Shown here in pieces: positions 1,878 to 62,355 of a stretch of 64,000 nucleotides of DNA. The notes beneath the pieces were generated by a model that made no database searches, had not been told where the DNA came from, and saw nothing but the letters and a program-made list of their open reading frames with translations. The position numbers and the translations under genes are program-made. Source of the DNA: Globomyces pollinis-pini (lineage: Eukaryota; Chytridiomycota; Chytridiomycetes; Rhizophydiales; Globomycetaceae); contig MU621101.1 of NCBI GenBank assembly GCA_025399215.1, positions 62,001 to 126,000 of the forward strand, in the 5' to 3' direction. Positions within the stretch are counted from its first letter, which is position 1. Each line of letters opens with the position of its first letter.

Positions 1878-4763
1878 ATGATGGCAACAAGGAAAGAATT
1901 ACCTTTAAAGGAACAGCAAATCTTCAAAACTATTCTCGTATGATCTCCATATTTTTTTTTTGATTAGTAGAAATATTACGAAACTAAGGAATATAAAAAG
2001 GGTATCAAACAAGCTGAACAAATCTTAAAAAAAGTTCCAGATCATGGTGGTATTAAATTTTACTTCTTTAATGCGTATTATAGAAACTTTGGCTATGAAA
2101 GGATTATTTTGTAGTCATCTAGATAGAAAGGAAGAAGCACATGAAAATATTAAAAAGGGTTTAAGATTAGATATCAAATCCCCTGTATGTTGGCATGTCT
2201 ATGGGTTATTGCATAGAGGTGAAAAAAATTATGAGGAAGCCATCAAATGTTACACTCAATCTCTACGAATTGACAAAGCTAATGGTCAGATCTTAAAGGA
2301 TTTATCTATCTTACATATTCAACGCCGACACTACGAAGCCTTTAATGTATTTTATTTTCCAGATTAAATCATAGGAAACGTGTGGAAAAATACTGGAATC
2401 CAGACCACAACTAAAGGCAAACTGGTTAAGTTTTGCAATTTCATATCAGCTTGTTGGAAATCCAGAAGCTGCTGAGCGCGTATTAAAGGAATGTGAATAT
2501 ACATTCAAGGTATTTTGAACAAACCCTCATTCTAGGATGTGCCACCAGTGGTAGGACAACTGGTCGCATATGAGGAAAGCGAGCTATGCTTGTACTGGAA
2601 TAGTCTGATTGAAGAATGTGGAGATTTGGAACGAGCACTGCAGCACTTGGATGAAGTAAAACCTAGAGTCAAAGATATTCTTTCTTTGAAAGAATCTTAT
2701 GGTAATTCTGGTTTGAATTAATATTTCAGGTTAGAAGCATTATTTAATCAAATTTAGGGCGTATTCTTTTAAAGTTAGAAAGAGGGAATGAAGCTGAGGC
2801 ATATTACCAGGATTTAATATCCATGAACCCCGATCACGCTGGATATTTATCTGGATTAGAAAAAGCCAAAGGATTTAACGATGTGCTAACCGAAGCGGAC
2901 CGTGAGAATATTTTACAATTATATGCCGACTTGGCGGTGAAATATCCACACTCACATTTAATTCAACGTCGACCATTAGATTATGCAGTTGGTGAAACCT
3001 TTGAGGTCTTAGCTGATCATCATTTAATCAGTTTATTTCGTAAATGTCTACCATCTCTTTTCAACTCCTACAAAAGCTTGCTGAGAATTGAGGAAAAGGG
3101 AAAGATCGTACAAAGACTTGTGGAATCTTATTACGAAAATTTGGTTTCATATGGTACATTTAGACAAGGCGAAGACGGTATGAATGGTTCAGCTAACTGT
3201 TATAGTCAAAGAGTACCCATCATCATTGCTTTGGGTAGCTTACTTCCTGGCACAACTCTATGATTTCATGGGAGATTTTGAAAAAGCCCTAGAATACATA
3301 GATATTGCGATCAACCATTCTCCCACCGCAGTGGAATTATATATGGCCAAAGCTAGGTTTTACAAGGTACAGAAGTTATCTGTATTATAACTTTGTAGCA
3401 TGTTGGTGACTTTAATACAGCTATGAACGTACTAGAAGAAGGAAGACAATTGGATTTACAAGATCGTTTTGTCAATTCTAAATGCACGAAATATATGTTA
3501 CGAAATAATCAATTAGCTACAGCCTCTTCAACAATAGGACTTTTTGCAAAAGTAAGAAGGTCAACACTTATGATTAGGATAGTTCTTCAGTAGATGCCAA
3601 TGCAGATTTAACAGAACTGCAGTGTATTTGGTATGCCTTTGGAGCTGCCAAAGCCCATCAAAGATTGCATCAGTTTGGATTGGCATTAAAGAGATTTCAT
3701 GAAATTGACAAGCATTTCAATGATTTTATTGATGATCAATTAGATTTTCATGGGTATGCGGTTCGAAAGCAAACATTCCGCAGTTACGTTGATCTTTTAC
3801 ACACGTTTGAGGTGCTGAGGAATCATCCGTACTATGTTCGTGCTGCAAAGGCAGCTGTGGAGACTTACTTGACACTCTTTGAAGCTGGAGAAGCAGCTCA
3901 AGTTCTAATTGAAGGTGTTAGCTTAAGTAAATATTCAAGTCTTTAATCTTTAGTCGGATTATCAGAGGGCGAACGAAAAAAGGCAATTAAAAAGGCCAAA
4001 AAGGCCGAATTAAAAGCCAAAGAACAAAAGGAATTAGCTATTGATGCAAAACCAAAGACAGGAGTCGCAACACCTAGTGATTCGGTTAGTGATGAAGATA
4101 TCTTTGGAACAAAGTTTGTTGTTGGCGTTGATCACTTGAGCGAAGCTAATAAGTTTCTTTCTCAATTGCAAAAATATTGCGAGAACGATATTGACGTCCA
4201 ACGCCTTGCCTGTCGAGTCTACATGGGTCAAAGTAATAGTGTGTAAGGTTACTTATGTTTAGAAAAGTACCTTTTGGTTCTTCAAGCATTATACCGTGCT
4301 TTCAGAATTAACAAAGAGACTGACTGGATACACTTGTTCGTAGCTCTACTCAGCAAAGTTGCGGAAGATAGTGCTGTTGACCCAGCAGTTGTTGCTGCGA
4401 TCAAAACTAGCTTACCTGAACTATGTGGTCATGAAGGCACATTGGAATCATCACTTAGTATTAATGAATCTTACTTGAAATCTGATAATGCTTCTCAGAT
4501 TATCTTGGGTTTACGAGTAAATCTTGGAATAGAAAGAGATGCATCTTTACCAACAAGTTTGATAGAGATGGATGATAAATCTCTCGCAACATTTGATTTG
4601 AAGGTTTGGCTGTCCATGTTTTTAATATTTTTAGAATGCTGTAGAATTGTGTGAATTGATCGCAAATGGATTCTGTGATTTGTCTAATGCCACTACATTT
4701 AAAGAAAGGTTTGCAAAGCAATTTCCACTTGCAAACTACTTTCATCCTGCAATAAACCCTTAA
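1878..4763 (+). CDS. NAA15: NAA15, auxiliary subunit of N-terminal acetyltransferase A
   Basis: TPR scaffold that holds the NAA10 catalytic subunit on the ribosome for co-translational N-terminal acetylation. Twelve exons: 1878-1937, 1971-2049, 2084-2346, 2375-2509, 2536-2701, 2758-3177, 3206-3366, 3399-3551, 3578-3926, 3954-4232, 4263-4603, 4635-4763. They total 2535 nt, 844 residues, close to yeast and human lengths. Recognisable blocks are [13 protein letters not shown] at the N-terminus, [34 protein letters not shown] and [14 protein letters not shown] Lys-rich segment near residue 600 matches the basic helix of the family. Introns are 26-34 nt except the one at 2702-2757, which is 56 nt and looks like two 28-nt introns end to end. 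Start: tandem ATGs at 1878 and 1881 in the same frame. Confidence 0.95.
2702..2757 (+). other. Double intron (28 + 28 nt, no exon between) in NAA15
   Basis: The 56-nt interval between exons 5 and 6 of NAA15 splits exactly into two 28-nt pieces, 2702-2729 and 2730-2757. Each begins with GT and ends with AG. Using only the first acceptor gives an in-frame TAG at once; removing all 56 nt joins SYG to RILLKLERG, as the protein family requires. Confidence 0.7.
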
Positions 4764-4831: not shown

Positions 4832-5356
4832 TTATTTCACTAATTGGGGGACAATTAATACAGGTACTTTAGAATGATGAACCAAATGTTGACTGACAGA
4901 ACCCAATAATACACTACTAAAAGCTCCTAAACCTCTGCTACCCATCACTACCATATCAGGAGCTGATCGATTGATTTTCAATTCCAATTCCTCCCTTGGA
5001 CTTCCACGCAAAGAAATTGCTTTACAATGAACACCATTATCCTGTAATAACTTTCCAAATGATTTTAATAACGCGAATGAATTCTGTTTAGCAGCATCTT
5101 CAATTTCATCGTAATATTGAGCAGGTAATACAAACCCTGATTCTATACTCATAGCGGCATCAATAGCAATTGACCTACAATGAAGTAACAATACTTCATC
5201 AGAATCTTTTTGAATCAAAGTTTTCATAGCCCAATCAATAACATATTTTGAAGAATCTGATTCATCTACCGGTATACAAATCACACGTTTAGGATGAAAA
5301 GGAATTTCTGTTTGATGTACAACTTCATGTACTCGATCTGACATTTGTTCTTGCAT
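4832..5356 (-). CDS. Universal stress protein A-like (paralogue 1)
   Basis: Single-exon gene of 174 residues. A UspA fold is indicated by an N-terminal beta strand followed by the Asp-containing VICIPVDES, and by the C-terminal nucleotide-binding signature GSRGLGAFSSVLLGSVS, which fits G-2x-G-9x-G-S/T of ATP-binding USPs. The protein ends with VPVLIVP as usual for the family. A ~30-residue N-terminal extension precedes the domain. It is divergent from paralogue 2 with 182 bp between start codons; a third paralogue lies at 11892-12356. A TATA-like element (5391-5396, reverse strand) lies 35 bp upstream of the ATG. Biochemical role in this lineage is unknown; stress-linked nucleotide binding is the family expectation. 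Confidence 0.93.
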   Translation of the reverse strand: MQEQMSDRVHEVVHQTEIPFHPKRVICIPVDESDSSKYVIDWAMKTLIQKDSDEVLLLHCRSIAIDAAMSIESGFVLPAQYYDEIEDAAKQNSFALLKSFGKLLQDNGVHCKAISLRGSPREELELKINRSAPDMVVMGSRGLGAFSSVLLGSVSQHLVHHSKVPVLIVPQLVK

Positions 5357-5538: not shown

Positions 5539-6105
5539 ATGGACACCAAAAGAATTGAAGAATTAAAATTGTTAAAAGTACAAGTGAATGAAGTTGTTCA
5601 ACAAGTGGATTCCAATTTTAATCCAAAAAGAACTATTTGTATACCTGTAGATGAATCCGAAAATTCAAAATATGTTGTTGATTGGACAATTCAAAAATTA
5701 TTGAATTCAGAAACAGATCAAGTTGTTTTATTAAATGTAAGACCTATTCCTGTAGATTCATATTTAATGGATTCTGAATTTCCTTATCTATTACCATCAG
5801 AAACGATCAATAAAATGGATGAAACTGCTAAAGAATATTCACATCAATTATTAAAAAAATATGGTCGAATTTATCAAACAAATGGAATTCATTGTAGAGC
5901 AGTAGCATTAAGAGGTGATACTAGGCAAGAATTGGAACTTAAAATTGAAAAGATTCATCCTGATTTGGTTATCATTGGAACTCGTGGTTTGGGTTTAATT
6001 AAAAGAGCTCTTTTGGGATCTGTTAGTGAACATTTGATACATCATTTAAAGGTACCGGTATTAACTGTTCCTTTAAATGATACTGTAAAAACAAAATCGG
6101 AATAA
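5539..6105 (+). CDS. Universal stress protein A-like (paralogue 2)
   Basis: Intronless, 188 residues. It shares the same architecture as paralogue 1: CIPVDESENSKYVVDW near the N-terminus and GTRGLGLIKRALLGSVS as the ATP-binding loop (G-2x-G-9x-G-S). It differs by a longer charged N-terminal segment and a Lys/Ser-rich tail. Its closeness to paralogues 1 and 3 in sequence and position indicates local duplication. It is expected to be a soluble nucleotide-binding stress protein; no other domain is visible. Confidence 0.93.
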   Translation: MDTKRIEELKLLKVQVNEVVQQVDSNFNPKRTICIPVDESENSKYVVDWTIQKLLNSETDQVVLLNVRPIPVDSYLMDSEFPYLLPSETINKMDETAKEYSHQLLKKYGRIYQTNGIHCRAVALRGDTRQELELKIEKIHPDLVIIGTRGLGLIKRALLGSVSEHLIHHLKVPVLTVPLNDTVKTKSE

Positions 6106-11891: not shown

Positions 11892-12356
11892 ATGACTGCA
11901 CAAGAACAATCTAAAGATGGCAAGAGAACTGTATGCATTCCAATTGATGCTTCTCAAAATGCTTCTCATGTAGTAGACTGGGCAATGGAAAATATCTTGA
12001 ACAAAGATAACGATAAAGTTGTACTCATAAATGTTCGTGAATGTCCAAAAGATGTATTCGGAGTTGAATGTGATTACAAATATTTCGAAGATCGTAAAGA
12101 AGAATCTTTGGCTTTACTCGATCGTACATCTAAACGAATGACATCCAATGGTTTTGAATGCAAAAGTATTGCTTTACGTGGTGAACCACGTACAGAACTT
12201 GAATGTGAGATTGGTCGATTGAATCCAGATTTAATCTTGGTGGGTAGTCGTGGTTTGGGAATGGTTGGTCGAGCATTGATGGGATCAGTGAGTACCCATC
12301 TAATTCATCATTGCAAGAATCCTATTGTGGTAGTTCCACCATTAATTAAACAATAA
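11892..12356 (+). CDS. Universal stress protein A-like (paralogue 3)
   Basis: Intronless, 154 residues, the shortest and most canonical of the three USPs here. RTVCIPIDASQNASHVVDW opens the domain; GSRGLGMVGRALMGSVS is the nucleotide-binding loop (G-2x-G-9x-G-S), followed by HLIHHCKNPIVVVP. It lacks the extensions of paralogues 1 and 2. The promoter has TATA and two TGACTCA elements. It is expected to be an ATP-binding cytosolic stress protein. Confidence 0.93.
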   Translation: MTAQEQSKDGKRTVCIPIDASQNASHVVDWAMENILNKDNDKVVLINVRECPKDVFGVECDYKYFEDRKEESLALLDRTSKRMTSNGFECKSIALRGEPRTELECEIGRLNPDLILVGSRGLGMVGRALMGSVSTHLIHHCKNPIVVVPPLIKQ

Positions 12357-26887: not shown

Positions 26888-27217
26888 AATATAATGTTTG
26901 TGACTGATTTTTTCTTTTTTGTATTTTGATTGTAAACGAAAGTAAAAGTACTGGATTGATTACACAGTTCAAGAATTTACCGAATAACTCAACTATTGGA
27001 TACTAAAAGGATACCCATACCATCCAATGGACTAAAGATGAATTTCTTCGATCCAAGGCAAAGAGGTCTAAAATCAAGAAGAAAAGGGATAAATAGATGG
27101 GATTGACCGTTTAGGGCAATACTGTTGTGAAAGGTAACATCACACAAATGAAATGTGATTGCAGTAGCACATGAACTATATAAACCACGAGAAAAAAAAA
27201 ACAGACTGAATCTCAAG
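26888..27217. promoter_or_regulatory. Intergenic region and promoter of the ion channel gene
   Basis: 330 bp. TATATAAA at 27177-27184 lies 34 bp before the ATG of the channel gene. No other signal or exon is seen. Confidence 0.45.
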
Positions 27218-28477
27218 ATGAATATACCAATACTGATATGTATGATACTGCAAGTGATATGCCAAGAGATATCATTAAACGATATCACCAACACTATCCT
27301 ACGAGGCTATGATAAACATATGCGACCTCAATTCAACAAATCTACCACAATCATCAAGACACAATACCGAATTGATCGAATATCCAATATCAATCATATC
27401 AACAACTGTTTTGATCTTGATATCATTGTCCGACTACAATGGATAGATGAACGATTAGTGTATAATCAAACTTTGGGTGAAGAATCTTTACGGGTGGATG
27501 AAGGTAGTATATGGTTACCAGATTTATATTTCCTTAATGAAATCGGTAAGATGGTGGTATTAGAAAGTACATTGAAAGTATCTAATACCGGATTAATCTT
27601 TTGGTCACGACATTTCATCATGTCATTTGCTTCACCTTTTAATCTATCACAATTCCCATTTGATCATCAAACTTTACCATTGAAATTGGTTTCCTATTCA
27701 TATCATCATGAACTTGTTGAATTAAAATTTTATGATGATTGGGAAGGTGGTGCAGTTTATCCGGATTTGAAAGGTTCGTTATTGTTATGGAATGTAGATG
27801 GAGTTGATGTGATTGATGGTTTGGTGAAATTTCGTGAAGGTACTCCAGAATTTGATTTGTTACAATTGGATATTCATATATCAAGATTATGGAGTACTTA
27901 TTTGATAAAGTATATTATTCCATTATACTTTATTGGATTATGTTCATCTATTGGATATTGGATTGATGTGACGGCTTTACCAACTCGAGGTGGATTTGCA
28001 GTTTCTCTACTATTATCAATTGTGACTTTAAATTTCGTAATGACATCTGATTTGCCTAAAGCCAGTTATTCCACCGCTTTGGATACTTTTATTTCAACTG
28101 TGTTTGGATATGTGTTGATGTCATTGATAGAGTATGCCGTTGTACATGTGATTGCTACTACTTGCCATAATTCGAGTGAATTAACGAGATTTATTGATGT
28201 AACTTTTCGGTATTCGCCCGTTGCTTTGAGCTGTTATGCGGTGTATGTGTTTAAGAATGATGGTAGTGTAAAGTGGCAGGTGTGGTTGAGTGTTTGTATT
28301 GCATTGGCTATTGTATTTGTGTTGAAAAGAATTTATGCGTATGTGATGGTCATTAGAGATAGGAAGGATAGAAGAAAAAGAAAGATAGTGATTGGAGAAG
28401 GTGATTGTGGTGAGGGTGAAAGCGGTAACTTAGTAATGGTGGAAGGTTGTGGTGGAGGGGACGTTGGGGCTATTTAA
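27218..28477 (+). CDS. Pentameric ligand-gated ion channel (Cys-loop superfamily) without the Cys-loop cysteines
   Basis: Intronless, 419 residues. A signal peptide (MNIPILICMILQVICQ) leads an extracellular ligand-binding domain with VRLQWIDERL, IWLPDLYFLNE and the Pro loop QFPFDHQT; the two cysteines that normally flank this loop are Ala/Ser and Leu. Four membrane helices follow: M1 (YIIPLYFIGLCSSIGYWI), M2 entered by LPTRGGFAVSLLLSIVTLNF, M3 (STVFGYVLMSLIEYAVVHVI) and M4 (WLSVCIALAIVFVLKRIY). DLPKASYSTALDTFI after M2 matches the LPKxSYxKAxD signature of GABA/glycine-type receptors, and the P-T-R before M2 resembles the anion-channel PAR. The M3-M4 loop is short, as in prokaryotic channels. 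The agonist is unknown; the membrane is presumably plasma membrane. Confidence 0.9.
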   Translation: MNIPILICMILQVICQEISLNDITNTILRGYDKHMRPQFNKSTTIIKTQYRIDRISNINHINNCFDLDIIVRLQWIDERLVYNQTLGEESLRVDEGSIWLPDLYFLNEIGKMVVLESTLKVSNTGLIFWSRHFIMSFASPFNLSQFPFDHQTLPLKLVSYSYHHELVELKFYDDWEGGAVYPDLKGSLLLWNVDGVDVIDGLVKFREGTPEFDLLQLDIHISRLWSTYLIKYIIPLYFIGLCSSIGYWIDVTALPTRGGFAVSLLLSIVTLNFVMTSDLPKASYSTALDTFISTVFGYVLMSLIEYAVVHVIATTCHNSSELTRFIDVTFRYSPVALSCYAVYVFKNDGSVKWQVWLSVCIALAIVFVLKRIYAYVMVIRDRKDRRKRKIVIGEGDCGEGESGNLVMVEGCGGGDVGAI

Positions 28478-28575: not shown

Positions 28576-30732
28576 TTATTCATCGAAATTGCCAAGTCCA
28601 AGTAGATACGCATTTGACCATCCAGGCAAGTTAACATCTTTCTTAAATTCATAGACAGGTTGTCGGAACGGATTACAATGAGGTGGTAATGTGACTTTAC
28701 CTCCGACTCTTGAAATGTTGGCACAGGTAGCACTGCATAACTGTTCAATACGTTCGGTCATGACAAATTTACGTTGGGATTGAATAATGGCAGCAGCGGT
28801 TTCAGCCCATTCTTGATGGGCAACTAATTCAGCATTGAGGGCAATGATAAGATCAGGTGGAGATTCTCCAAAATTTTGAGATGCCTTCACTTCGGCAGGA
28901 ACAGAGTCTGGGAGTTGGAATGCTTGGCCACTGATATGTTCTGCCTGATAAGGCACACTGTTAAGAGAGATAAAGAGAGTAGAATCATTAGCAACGGATC
29001 GAAGAATCATGGCACGTAATTCTGGTGGAATGGCACCGGATATGTTTGGACCAATCATATGAATACATAGATCAGTTTTTGGTAAAAATGCAAGTAAGAT
29101 TTCGAATAAAGGCAGTAAATCTGCTTCTCGTTCAACACCAATCAAATGAATAGTAATTCTTCTTCGTTCTAAAGTTCAAAAAATATATCTATACCTCCTT
29201 CCTTTAAAGGCTCGGATCGCTTCAAAATAAATTGATTGATACAGTGCCACACTGTCATTGGAGTATCTAAAATCAAGGCTGCAGGATTATCAAAGGAATA
29301 CTTCTTAGCCGTATAAAGTGCTTTCCAGCTATCAATTTCAGTTACGTCTACGTCAGCTGGGAAAGGAGCAGATAGTGGAAACATCTCTTGTGGTAATCCT
29401 AATGATTTAAACATTGTCTGTGGATCGGCTTGTTGAGTTCTGAATCGCTGAATTAAATGTGCGGAAATGGCACCTATGCATCAAAAATGTGGTGAACATA
29501 CCCCAAGGTAACTGGTTAAAGCATCCACATAGACGAGCAAAGAGTCCTACGTTGTGTCTTTTCTTTGAATCCAAGAATGGGACAACGTTGTAGTTGTTGA
29601 GAATGTTATCCTTATTGTAGTAAGTAAATGGGAAATCATGAAGGTTCCAATCACTTATATGAGACATGGTAGCCTTAAAATCAGCACATTGCATTTTGTG
29701 TGTTGGCCATCCTGCCTTCTATTCCGAGTTAGTATATATTCACAGAACATATTAAATAAAAAGGTTGTAAAGAAAACACAAATTCACCCAACCCCGTTAG
29801 AGTTTAATGAGATGTGCAAAATGTTTGAATAGCAAATCGAAACGCCGTCAGATATATTCAAATTGACGAAGTAAAATGAATGAATACTTACAGCACATTC
29901 AGGAGAGCAATAGATGACCGCTTTACATGCAGCACATTGACTTGCTAACGGTCAACAATAGAATCACATACCTTTTCCCAATATTTCTTTCTTACAAGCA
30001 AAGCAACCACGTGGAGGAGGAGAATTAGGTTTAATAGGTTCGCCAGGAGCTTGTTCAGTTGGTAATTGAAATGATTCGACTGGATTGGGAGGTGCAACGA
30101 AAGCCAAACGATGTTCTAGTAATTGTGGATACTTTTGAGACAATTCATCTACTTCTACGCAATCTATATCAAATTCTTTCAAAAGTTCTTTAATTTCTGA
30201 TTTCTGTTCATTGGTCAAAATAAAAGTTTCCAAAAAGAGCAAGACTTTTGGTTTGGAGATAACTGAAGATTCTGGGTCGATAGGATCAATGATAGACTTT
30301 AGTAAAGTGATGACACAATGTTCTGGAGTGGGAATGAGAGCATCTTTAGTGAATTCGATTGCTCTCAAAACACCATCTTCTTGGATTGATGCTGTTTGTT
30401 TTGAGGTACCAATTTCCCAAAGAGTATCAACTGGGGAAGCTTCCAGAACAGCATCACGATATGAGTCAATATCACCAAGGAGAGAATGCAAAGAATTTGA
30501 TTTTTTCTAGCAAGTTTTAGATATAAGAAGATACCTTTTTTAATGAAGGGAAAGCCCAAGAGAGAATGAAGGGAAGGGAGATTAAGATGAGAGTAGAGGC
30601 AACGACTGCAGGATGAGACAAGAGAGTATGCAGTGGGTCGTTGATTAACTGAACAGCAAAGCCAGTTAAATCTTCGTATAGTGAATGATGAGTGACATTC
30701 AATGGTACTGTGTGATTGCTTGTATCGTTCAT
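28576..30732 (-). CDS. MYND zinc-finger protein with MSS51-type C-terminal domain
   Basis: Exons 30732-30535, 30506-29972, 29944-29892, 29718-29502, 29473-29195 and 29168-28576; 624 residues. An N-terminal membrane helix (VVASTLILISLPFILSWAF) is followed by a central MYND finger split over two introns: CFACKKEILGK, CAACKAVIYCSPECA, then KAGWPTHKMQC, giving the full C-x2-C / C-x2-C / C-x3-C / H-x3-C set. The C-terminal half (DLCIHMIGPNISG, LIIALNAELVAH, SNAYLLGLGNFDE) resembles the domain found after MYND in Mss51-like proteins. Intron 3 (29719-29891) is 173 nt, the longest here, with a perfect TACTAAC branch-point sequence. Function is unknown; organelle membrane association is inferred. Confidence 0.78.
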
Positions 30733-30921: not shown

Positions 30922-32042
30922 ATGACCATAGTAAAAACAAGGATCCATTTAACCATAGACTATCCGAATTAGGTCTCATTTACAACCACTAACGATCACG
31001 GCTAATCCTGACGATTCTTTGCTTTCCTTAATCAATACCATAAAGACTTACCCTCAGTTTGAATCCCTCTCCTTTTCACTCAGAAACACTTATCCAAACG
31101 CTTTATTAAATGACTTGAACTTATCCTTACGCGATCTAAATATCTCTCATAATCACTCGTTGTTTCTCGAACTTAATAACTCTCAGCCAAATGTCAATAA
31201 ATCAATTACTCCCACCACTACCAGTAAAAGTACAAACAGCAACTCTATAGCAATCCCTGAAGGTATCGTCTCTGTCAGGGTCATGCTGGATGACAACTCT
31301 TGTTTATTCACATCTATTGCGTACTAAAATATCATTAACCAAAAGCTATTTATTTGAAAGAAATGTTGATAAAGCTCCAGAATTAAGAAAACTGGTCTCA
31401 AAGATTATCAAATCTAATACTGTAAAGTACTCGCAAGCTATTCTTGGTAAACAACCAGATCAATACTGTACTTGGATTGAGAATAATAACTCTTGGGGTG
31501 GTGCCATTGAACTATCTATCTTCTCTGAATTTTTCAAAACTGAACTATGTTCTGTGGATATTGCCACTGGTCGAAAGGACATTTTTGGTGAAGGAGCATA
31601 CTCTTCACGGGCATATCTCTTTTACAGGTTTGTCATACATCATCACTTATCTTTAACAGGTACACTCTACAAGATATCTAAAGTTTATTAGGTAGAATTG
31701 TGTTTCCATATTCATATTTAGGTAATATTGAAGAAGTTAATTGCAAGTGGAATTCATTATGATGCCGTAGCCCTATCCCCATCCACCGACTCTCCACCAG
31801 AATTTGATCAAGTCCTCTTCCAAGGTGAATTTATCCCCAAAATGGATCAAGCAGTCTCACAACTGGCTACTACTTGGAAAAAATTACATAAATTTACTGA
31901 TACTGCCAACTTTACTTTGAAATGCTCCGTTTGTCAATTGGTATTGTGTATATTTGATTTATTATAGGGACTTGTGGGAGAGAATTCTGCACAAAAGCAT
32001 GCGAATGAGACTGGGCATGCACAGTTTGTCGAATACAGTTGA
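30922..32042 (+). CDS. OTU1: OTU1/YOD1 deubiquitinase
   Basis: Cdc48/p97-associated OTU-family cysteine protease. Exons 30922-30930, 30959-31320, 31346-31627, 31748-31940 and 31968-32042; 306 residues. Domain order: ubiquitin-like N-terminal domain, catalytic OTU domain with DDNSCLFTSIAY (nucleophile Cys) and YSGIHYDAV (catalytic His), then a C-terminal C2H2 finger (KCSVCQLGLVGE, then HANETGHAQFVEYS). The first coding exon is only 9 nt (Met-Thr-Ile). Between exons 3 and 4, 120 nt must be removed to make YSGIHYDA; this interval divides into four adjoining GT...AG units. The family call is firm. Confidence 0.94.
31628..31747 (+). other. Stack of four adjoining introns in OTU1
   Basis: Units 31628-31659 (32 nt), 31660-31691 (32 nt), 31692-31721 (30 nt) and 31722-31747 (26 nt) each begin with GT and end with AG and abut without an exon. 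Splicing any one alone leaves stops or breaks the conserved YSGIHYDA sequence; removing all four restores it. Confidence 0.75.
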
Positions 32043-60974: not shown

Positions 60975-62355
60975 TTACACTTTATTGGTATTCCAGATAC
61001 TAGAAAATCGAATCAATTCTGAACAATCAAAACTATCATATTCAATTTGAAGTAGCTCTCCAATTGAAGATCGTTGTAGTAAGACGTTTCGCAATAAGAG
61101 TCGATCAATAGAAAAATAAGGTAAAATAAAAAATTCTTGAATCAAATACATCACGTCTCTTCGAACAATTGATTCCAGTAACAATAAATATCGACTGACT
61201 TGGAGTAGATGCTTAGCTTGTCTATTCATAAAAATACGTAGTTCAGTATCATAATCAAATATGTTTTGATTATTCAACATGAAATTTGGATTGATTCTAT
61301 TGATATTGGAAAGGGCTTTATCCAGAATCCAACTATCTGTAGTTTCAATAAGATTTGAATTAATCGAGACATAAGAAATTGTGGTGTTTAATGAGAGTCC
61401 ATCTAGAAGAGATGGCATTAGATCTGTTGAAGGATGGTTTGGTATTGATTGAGTAGATGGTAAATTATTTAACCCTTGAGTGATATTAAGTACCCCAAAA
61501 TCATTCAAAGTTGGATTATCTGGGATCACCTTTATGTAAAGTTGTTTCAATACTTTGGAATTTATCAGTAGTTGAGTTAAACAAATCATTGCGTCTGTAT
61601 CGATAGCAATAAATTCCACGTTTAACTTTTTCAAACGTTGATGAGAAATCAAGCTGTTGTTGAATGACTTTAAACATCTTAGATGAGGTTCAGAAATTGT
61701 CAAAGAAACCAAATGATTATTCAACTGTAGAAAACGTTTCAAATCCGCATAAACAAATTCAGGATAACCTAAATAAGCAGTGAAATGAGTTAAATCCTGT
61801 AAATTCAAAAGGGATTTGAAGACGTTTTTGATACCTTGATGATTTGATTTCATTTGTCCCAATTCCAACCTTTTCAATTTCGGTGATTTTATAAAGTAAT
61901 CACATAACCTTTCGGACTCGGTTGAAGTAATCTGATTGATTTGTAAAACCTCTAATGATTTTGGTAATTGAGCAAAACTTGTGGTAATAGATGCTACCAT
62001 TATTAAAATAATATACCTAAACTAAGACTGATTCTAAATTACCTGATATATTTAAATGAGTTAAATTTGGCAAGGTAGCTAACATTAAATAGAAAGCTTC
62101 CATTAGAAATGCAGGTAGGAACATAGTTTGAGATACTTTCCACAAAGATTGACTGAATCGTAAACATTTCACAACAAACAAGATATCTTCTTGAGAAAAG
62201 TAAGATTGATTCATAGTTTGGAAATCTACTATTTGACATTGGGATAGTGGTTCTATCAATGATGCTTTGATAGTTTGTAGGTCTGAGTAAGTCCCATTTC
62301 TCTCTTTGCATTCCCTCCATTGATTAAATTCCGGAATATCGTTTAATCGAATCAT
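60975..62355 (-). CDS. LRR-like (RNI-fold) protein, unrecognised
   Basis: Exons 62355-62043 and 61993-60975; 443 residues. Repeated L-x-x-L-x-L/I segments (LPNLTHLNIS, LEVLQINQI, LKRLELGQM, LKKLNVEFIAID, LKQLYIKVI) suggest an RNI/LRR solenoid; the last ~150 residues are helical. Between the exons 49 nt are removed, made of two adjoining GT...AG units. Just upstream of the start, in frame, DDGRISFDEFTKR (62371-62403) looks like part of an EF-hand loop, so the true start may lie in an unseen upstream exon. Confidence 0.65.
61994..62042 (-). other. Double intron (26 + 23 nt, no exon between)
   Basis: Coding-strand order: 62042-62017 (26 nt) then 62016-61994 (23 nt), each GT...AG. Removing only the first puts a stop (TTT TAA) immediately in frame; removing both continues LNISASITTSF in frame. 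Confidence 0.65.

Follow-up and report, generated by a model that had tools for sequence, protein, structure and literature searches.

In Drosophila, according to the available portions of the paper, recursive splicing makes use of ratcheting points, or zero-length exons, within very large host introns that are removed from the 5' end (PMC2773006), and another partly available source gives recursive splicing a broader size range than before reported; size may not be a defining feature (PMC10156609). The fungal stwintron, in the accessible parts of four papers, is described as having two constituents, an external intron and, interrupting one of its splice signals, an internal intron, with removal from the inside out (PMC9024468, PMC7138796, PMC5639578, PMC8469720), and among these same sources is a stwintron-type case from Lipomyces starkeyi that can be removed by one or two reactions. 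In human UBC, tandem AGGT sites can each act as a donor or as an acceptor, the repeat unit being coding and the products varying in ubiquitin number (PMC10809524). Introns have also been described as arising when AGGT segments are tandemly duplicated, an intron of the fission yeast gene SPOG_01682 spanning four 24-bp duplicates (PMC4974935), and in Cryptococcus introns multiply inside a repeated gene region by repeat expansion (PMC2395259), both as given in the sections of these papers on which we draw. In those parts of the literature on recursive splicing, UBC, stwintrons, duplication gain, and Cryptococcus, no array of many complete minimal introns is described. Among the matches listed in our literature search none concerned stacked Globomyces introns or arrays in which three or more complete short introns follow one another, subscription papers lying mostly outside that search, and novelty is not proven.

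Here we analyze a 120-nt interval in the OTU1 gene of Globomyces pollinis-pini, Globomyces being a chytrid genus of the Rhizophydiales. We propose that this interval probably consists of four complete minimal spliceosomal introns lying head to tail with zero-length exons between them, that it is one of many such arrays, and that each unit is removed singly or together with a few others. Stacks of this kind offer a natural test both of intron multiplication and of removal by the splicing machinery.

A four-unit intron stack in OTU1

The window is the whole stretch of DNA that was analyzed, 64,000 nucleotides long (C12:62001-126000). It contains three open reading frames lying close together (4832-5356 on the - strand, 5539-6105 and 11892-12356 on the + strand) that we take to be universal-stress-protein-like, and an open reading frame at 27155-28477 (+) that presumably resembles a Cys-loop ligand-gated ion channel. 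The OTU1 gene model occupies 30922..32042 on the + strand and has a product of 306 aa. The exon 5' of the stack (31346..31627) ends in ...AYLFY(AG| and the exon 3' of it (31748..31940) begins with |T)GIHYDA, both being placed by the gene model and homology, so that the joined exons read ...RAYLFY(AG|T)GIHYDAVALSP. The earlier note had divided the 120 nt in between, 31628-31747, into four abutting GT..AG units, and this division is exact in the sequence: unit 1 lies at 31628..31659 (32 nt, GTTTGT...AACAG), unit 2 at 31660..31691 (32 nt, GTACAC...TATTAG), unit 3 at 31692..31721 (30 nt, GTAGAA...TTTAG), and unit 4 at 31722..31747 (26 nt, GTAATA...GCAAG), all on the + strand. The remaining introns of the gene measure 28, 25, and 27 nt, the latter two being ordinary single introns at 31321..31345 and 31941..31967 (+).

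Two further points of the note are borne out, namely that the units have the normal intron size of this genome and that OTU1 needs all of them out. Single introns no longer than 45 nt, of which there are 598, have a mean length of 28.3 nt (s.d. 2.9), and every one of the 15 combinations in which at least one whole unit is kept leads to a frame break or a stop. The interval contains three AG|GT junctions, in each of which an acceptor and a donor are juxtaposed, and its GC content is 28% versus 37% in the flanking exons. The branch-like motif YTNAY is present in all four units. The donors of units 1 to 4 are on the weak side, at the 12th, 15th, 5th, and 56th percentile of single introns, and the acceptors stand at the 13th, 35th, 74th, and 6th percentile.

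The gene finder used throughout is a simple hidden-Markov program that we wrote ourselves and ran on 232 kb of the 18.5 Mb assembly, namely all of C12, the window's contig, and C1:1-100000. At OTU1 it scores the stack at -0.3 relative to the best unchained model, which takes parts of the interval as exon. The decision falls to homology, which favors removal of the full interval, while our gene finder cannot tell. The public OTU1 protein of this species (BC833DRAFT_575656) is identical to the product with all units removed over 306 of 306 residues, an agreement that is no independent proof since public gene models agree with ours at OTU1 and disagree at the PhyH gene described below. Six other fungal OTU1 proteins align gap-free with the derived protein at the GIHYD motif, and so does the solved OTU1 structure 4boq, whose alignment is ungapped there.

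The public OTU1 model of Globomyces sp. JEL0801 (P0002, HDV02_000983) differs in having 27 extra residues before GIHYDA, and with it comes the alternative of a genuine coding insert made up of part of the interval. A frame through unit 1, part of unit 2, and unit 4 is indeed open once 39 nt are removed, a model of that kind scores equal to the stack in our gene finder, and another annotator chose it for JEL0801. Such an insert would, however, immediately precede the catalytic-His motif, and it is absent from the other seven aligned OTU1 proteins, G. pollinis-pini included, as well as from structure 4boq. It also needs a 39-nt intron, a length that borders the range and is found in 1 of 665 introns, and a like error is seen at a 10-unit array in the PhyH gene, where 19 extra residues of the public model are absent from five homologues. 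We thus consider a coding insert very improbable. The 27 residues are the translation of unit 1, the start of unit 2, and unit 4 with one residue changed; the sister strain therefore has at least those parts of the array, and its annotation misread them. The JEL0801 array is here read through the protein, in which unit 3 is invisible. The same JEL0801 protein also lacks the conserved OTU1 pieces YLFER and VCQL.

Intron arrays across the genome

The note had named no parallel to a four-unit stack. The OTU1 stack is not unique, being one of many arrays in the Globomyces genome. In the 232 kb the gene finder called 665 introns, 646 of them at 23-37 nt (mode 28) and 19 longer. Introns of 23-37 nt are unusually short for a fungus. 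The donor in this sample is little more than GTAW, positions +5 and +6 being variable, and lengths divisible by three are not avoided among single introns (190 of 598). When introns were allowed to be chained, arrays were found at 16 of 629 intron sites (nine of two units, one of three, four of four, one of five, and one of ten), and the chained score exceeds the unchained one at 14 of the 16. The first runs of the gene finder, without chaining, were set aside because their long introns and tiny exons look false; with chaining forbidden the program still calls long introns, and inspection shows that several of them tile into units. Two of the arrays accompany OTU1 in the window, one at 2702..2757 (+) with two 28-nt units and a weak one at 61994..62042 (-) with units of 26 and 23 nt (score difference -1.9). 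Scaled to 18.5 Mb, 16 arrays in 232 kb would correspond roughly to 1,300.

Seven further loci, which were picked by a pattern search for apparently long arrays, carry 6, 6, 7, 7, 7, 7, and 12 units, and at all seven the joined flanks form one open frame with at least 23 residues on each side. The 12-unit array, 365 nt long, lies inside NVKIT/DFGLSNF, which we take to be a kinase motif. Among the arrays from the gene finder, that of five units lies inside FLHDLG/LIHTDLKPEN of a CLK-type kinase, whose alignment with CLK2 is gap-free across FLHD...HTDLKPEN; the best 120 of 1194 matches to this kinase included no Globomyces entry. The 10-unit array lies inside a PhyH dioxygenase (C12:41650-42908), where the five aligned homologues are gap-free and the public model (P0121, BC833DRAFT_47563) has its 19 extra residues. 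Of six array proteins scanned against Pfam, four have a domain that spans the array junction, namely PhyH (10 units), Pkinase (5), DCP1 (4), and RNase_P_p30 (2), and in the other two, the Omp85 and OTU1 proteins, the matches stop short of the junction. Gene models can thus err at arrays: in a comparison of three public Globomyces proteins at an array, the OTU1 model of this species leaves out the whole array and the other two translate parts of it.

The spacing of the junction word AGGTA provides a test that is free of any gene model. Over the 232 kb, distances from one AGGTA word to another on the same strand have a peak at 24-35 nt and further ones near 56 and 84 nt; six unrelated five-letter words have no such peak, and ACCTA, being the other strand of TAGGT, does. 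Across the whole genome the triplet TAGGTA..AGGTA..AGGTA has 176 occurrences with its words about 21-36 nt apart, 3 with 38-52 nt between them, and 30 with 55-69 nt, the double spacing. A reversed-pattern control gives 38, 32, and 18, and the double spacing exceeds its control only modestly (30 versus 18). The mirror pattern, in which it is the last junction that has the fixed T, yields 191 matches versus 34, OTU1 being among them. As matches within one array overlap, these are counts of triplets and not of arrays. They bear on a further alternative, that an AT-rich intron happens to have AG|GT at handy distances. For OTU1 by itself the odds of this are small but not extreme: when the interval was dinucleotide-shuffled 20,000 times with its GT and AG ends kept, 7 of the shuffles tiled into units of 23-37 nt. 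Against it stand arrays of up to 12 units and the genome-wide excess at intron spacing, in which 176 matches in register versus 3 off it already refute chance for the genome as a whole, and we regard chance as very improbable for OTU1 as well.

Proposed removal and growth of the arrays

We propose that, most likely, each unit is removed as a minimal intron of its own and in any order. The Globomyces spliceosome would work mainly by intron definition over a short range (about 23-37 nt), such that each unit is recognized by itself, and each AG|GT junction would be the acceptor of one unit and the donor of the next. Because every partial product is simply a shorter array, all routes would end in the same mRNA. 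Removal unit by unit is the simplest reading in that each unit has the intron features of this genome. The outer GT and outer AG of the OTU1 stack also allow removal in one step, with the same mRNA either way, and the main alternative is accordingly that the 120 nt are one ordinary intron in which the inner AG|GT are unused relics of duplication.

A genuine untiled intron of 173 nt in the window speaks for this alternative. Located at 29719-29891 (-), where it interrupts the MYND finger of an MSS51-like protein, it carries GTAAGT and TACTAAC, has no AG after position 5 until its end, and is a rarity among introns of 23-37 nt. It shows that long one-step splicing is possible in this fungus, and it tells against making stepwise splicing obligatory, an option that the note had raised. 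A hard upper limit on intron length is thereby ruled out, and size alone is no bar to the removal of the OTU1 interval in one step. When introns longer than 45 nt are allowed, 12 of the 15 untiled long introns called gain less than 6 log units, which would suggest that decayed untiled long introns are few; the 173-nt intron, however, is among these 12, with a gain of only 5.8 log units, so that low gain does not mean artefact and other real long introns may hide among the 15. Pfam scans of eight proteins with 10 of the 15 untiled introns find a domain clearly across the junction in one, the MYND protein, which again would suggest that such introns are few. Of the remaining seven, one has a gamma-tubulin complex domain that ends just past the junction, one plainly joins two genes (MRP-L20 and UNC-50), two carry a domain to one side of the junction only, and three have no match above the cut-off.

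It speaks against one-step removal that the internal units still have the length of introns as well as donors, acceptors, and branch-like motifs, and that AGGTA triplets are spaced in quantized fashion (the 176, 3, and 30 given above). In 69 units selected by AGGTA at both ends alone, a set that is free of selection bias in the branch region, YTNAY is present near the 3' end in 77% versus 44% after shuffling, where the 598 single introns have 83% versus 49% and nine AGGTA-bounded pieces of the wrong length have 22% versus 30%. For the 32 internal array units without a similar partner, which are probably old for that reason, the figure is 78% versus 44%, though it is biased upwards as the score that selected them sees the branch region. 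In their donor and acceptor scores, array units come close to single introns and clearly exceed random GT..AG pairs (1.33 and 1.38), the inner units being slightly weaker than single introns (donor 3.58 versus 3.83, p 0.03; acceptor 3.42 versus 4.11, p 0.05) and the first-unit donors of arrays also lying below them (3.17, p 0.03). A search for U1 RNA gave no match, and its controls were likewise without a match. Considering both sides, we judge a single 120-nt intron to be unlikely.

How the arrays arise can be approached through the likeness of their units, which were called alike above a similarity of 0.28, a threshold set so that 25 of 5000 between-array pairs pass by construction. Alike pairs make up 14 of 81 adjacent pairs and 17 of 190 non-adjacent pairs of the same array, and 6 of 67 adjacent pairs when the two most repetitive arrays are left out. 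The PhyH array has two identical units, 2 and 3, and units 2-6 of another array (L027) are mutually similar. Above a similarity of 0.55 there are 13 of 271 within-array pairs versus 12 of 178,503 pairs of single introns. Such similarity inside arrays, rare as it is between single introns, fits local tandem duplication of whole introns and not a mobile intron. The note had offered intron duplication as one origin of the OTU1 stack, and this stands for other arrays, with their near-identical or identical adjacent units, but not for OTU1 itself, whose units are mutually unlike (six pairs at -0.28 to 0.13, the best falling below the threshold). Insertion of an intron into a splice site, also offered there, is possible, but no mobile intron family was seen in the 232 kb and the OTU1 stretch occurs at one place only in the genome. 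Introner-like elements were considered and rejected, as similar introns at many unrelated loci were not seen in the 232-kb sample, and so was AG microhomology at the exon edge as a driver of duplication, pre-array exons showing no significant enrichment in AG (10 of 23 versus 175 of 598, one-sided p 0.11).

We hypothesize that an array grows as whole introns are duplicated in the AG|GT register, through slippage or unequal exchange, that the duplication would be invisible to the protein, and that the copies would then diverge under selection for spliceability. The OTU1 array might in that case be old and diverged, or it might have been assembled by separate gains. Put in general form, Globomyces would have "intron minisatellites," head-to-tail arrays of minimal introns, perhaps more than 1000 of them, that grow by duplication of whole introns in the AG|GT register, are removed unit by unit in any order, and drift in length almost freely while sparing the protein, a view toward which we lean only slightly. 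Were it true, splicing by intron definition would be so local in this fungus that intron sites usually lengthen by the addition of whole introns, and a route of intron multiplication would be visible in which a whole intron is copied beside itself at no cost to the protein.

Comparison with known systems

The huge animal introns from which recursive splicing is known make the process hard to follow, and Globomyces may show it in tiny, legible arrays with units down to 23 nt, at many loci of a small genome. If so, the order and directionality of removal and the minimum unit that the spliceosome recognizes would be measurable by ordinary RNA-seq. By anatomy we file the Globomyces arrays, as read from the sequence, under recursive splicing with zero-length exons. 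As in Drosophila, so far as the available portions of that work describe it, acceptor and donor abut at AG|GT with no exon between, a site that would serve first as the 3' and afterwards as the 5' splice site; unlike the pieces of Drosophila ratcheting, those of Globomyces are minimal (23-37 nt) and fill the whole interval in numbers of 2-12 (PMC2773006). At 120 nt the OTU1 host interval has roughly four times the length of the mean single intron, and in absolute terms it is tiny.

The term "stwintron-like," which the note had also used, proves to be loose. What is shared with stwintrons, as the accessible parts of those papers present them, is a fungal intervening sequence made of more than one U2-type intron. 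We reject membership because the units abut at AG|GT, each with its own GT, branch-like motif, and AG, and no OTU1 unit interrupts the splice signal of another; the Globomyces introns lie side by side, and every order of removal would work. The tandem AGGT array as such is shared with human UBC, the Globomyces sites being putatively dual in use, and the difference from what the available text gives for UBC is that the Globomyces units are non-coding introns and the protein comes from full removal only (PMC10809524). With regard to origin, the gains described in PMC4974935 are alike in that tandem duplication in the AGGT register makes intronic sequence, although there, in the part of the paper at hand, one intron spans exonic repeats, and in Globomyces whole introns would be the duplicated unit and the arrays lie across the genome. 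The multiplication of introns in Cryptococcus, within the same limits of the source (PMC2395259), is likewise attributed to slippage or unequal exchange, but what would be repeated in Globomyces is the intron alone, with no exon between the copies.
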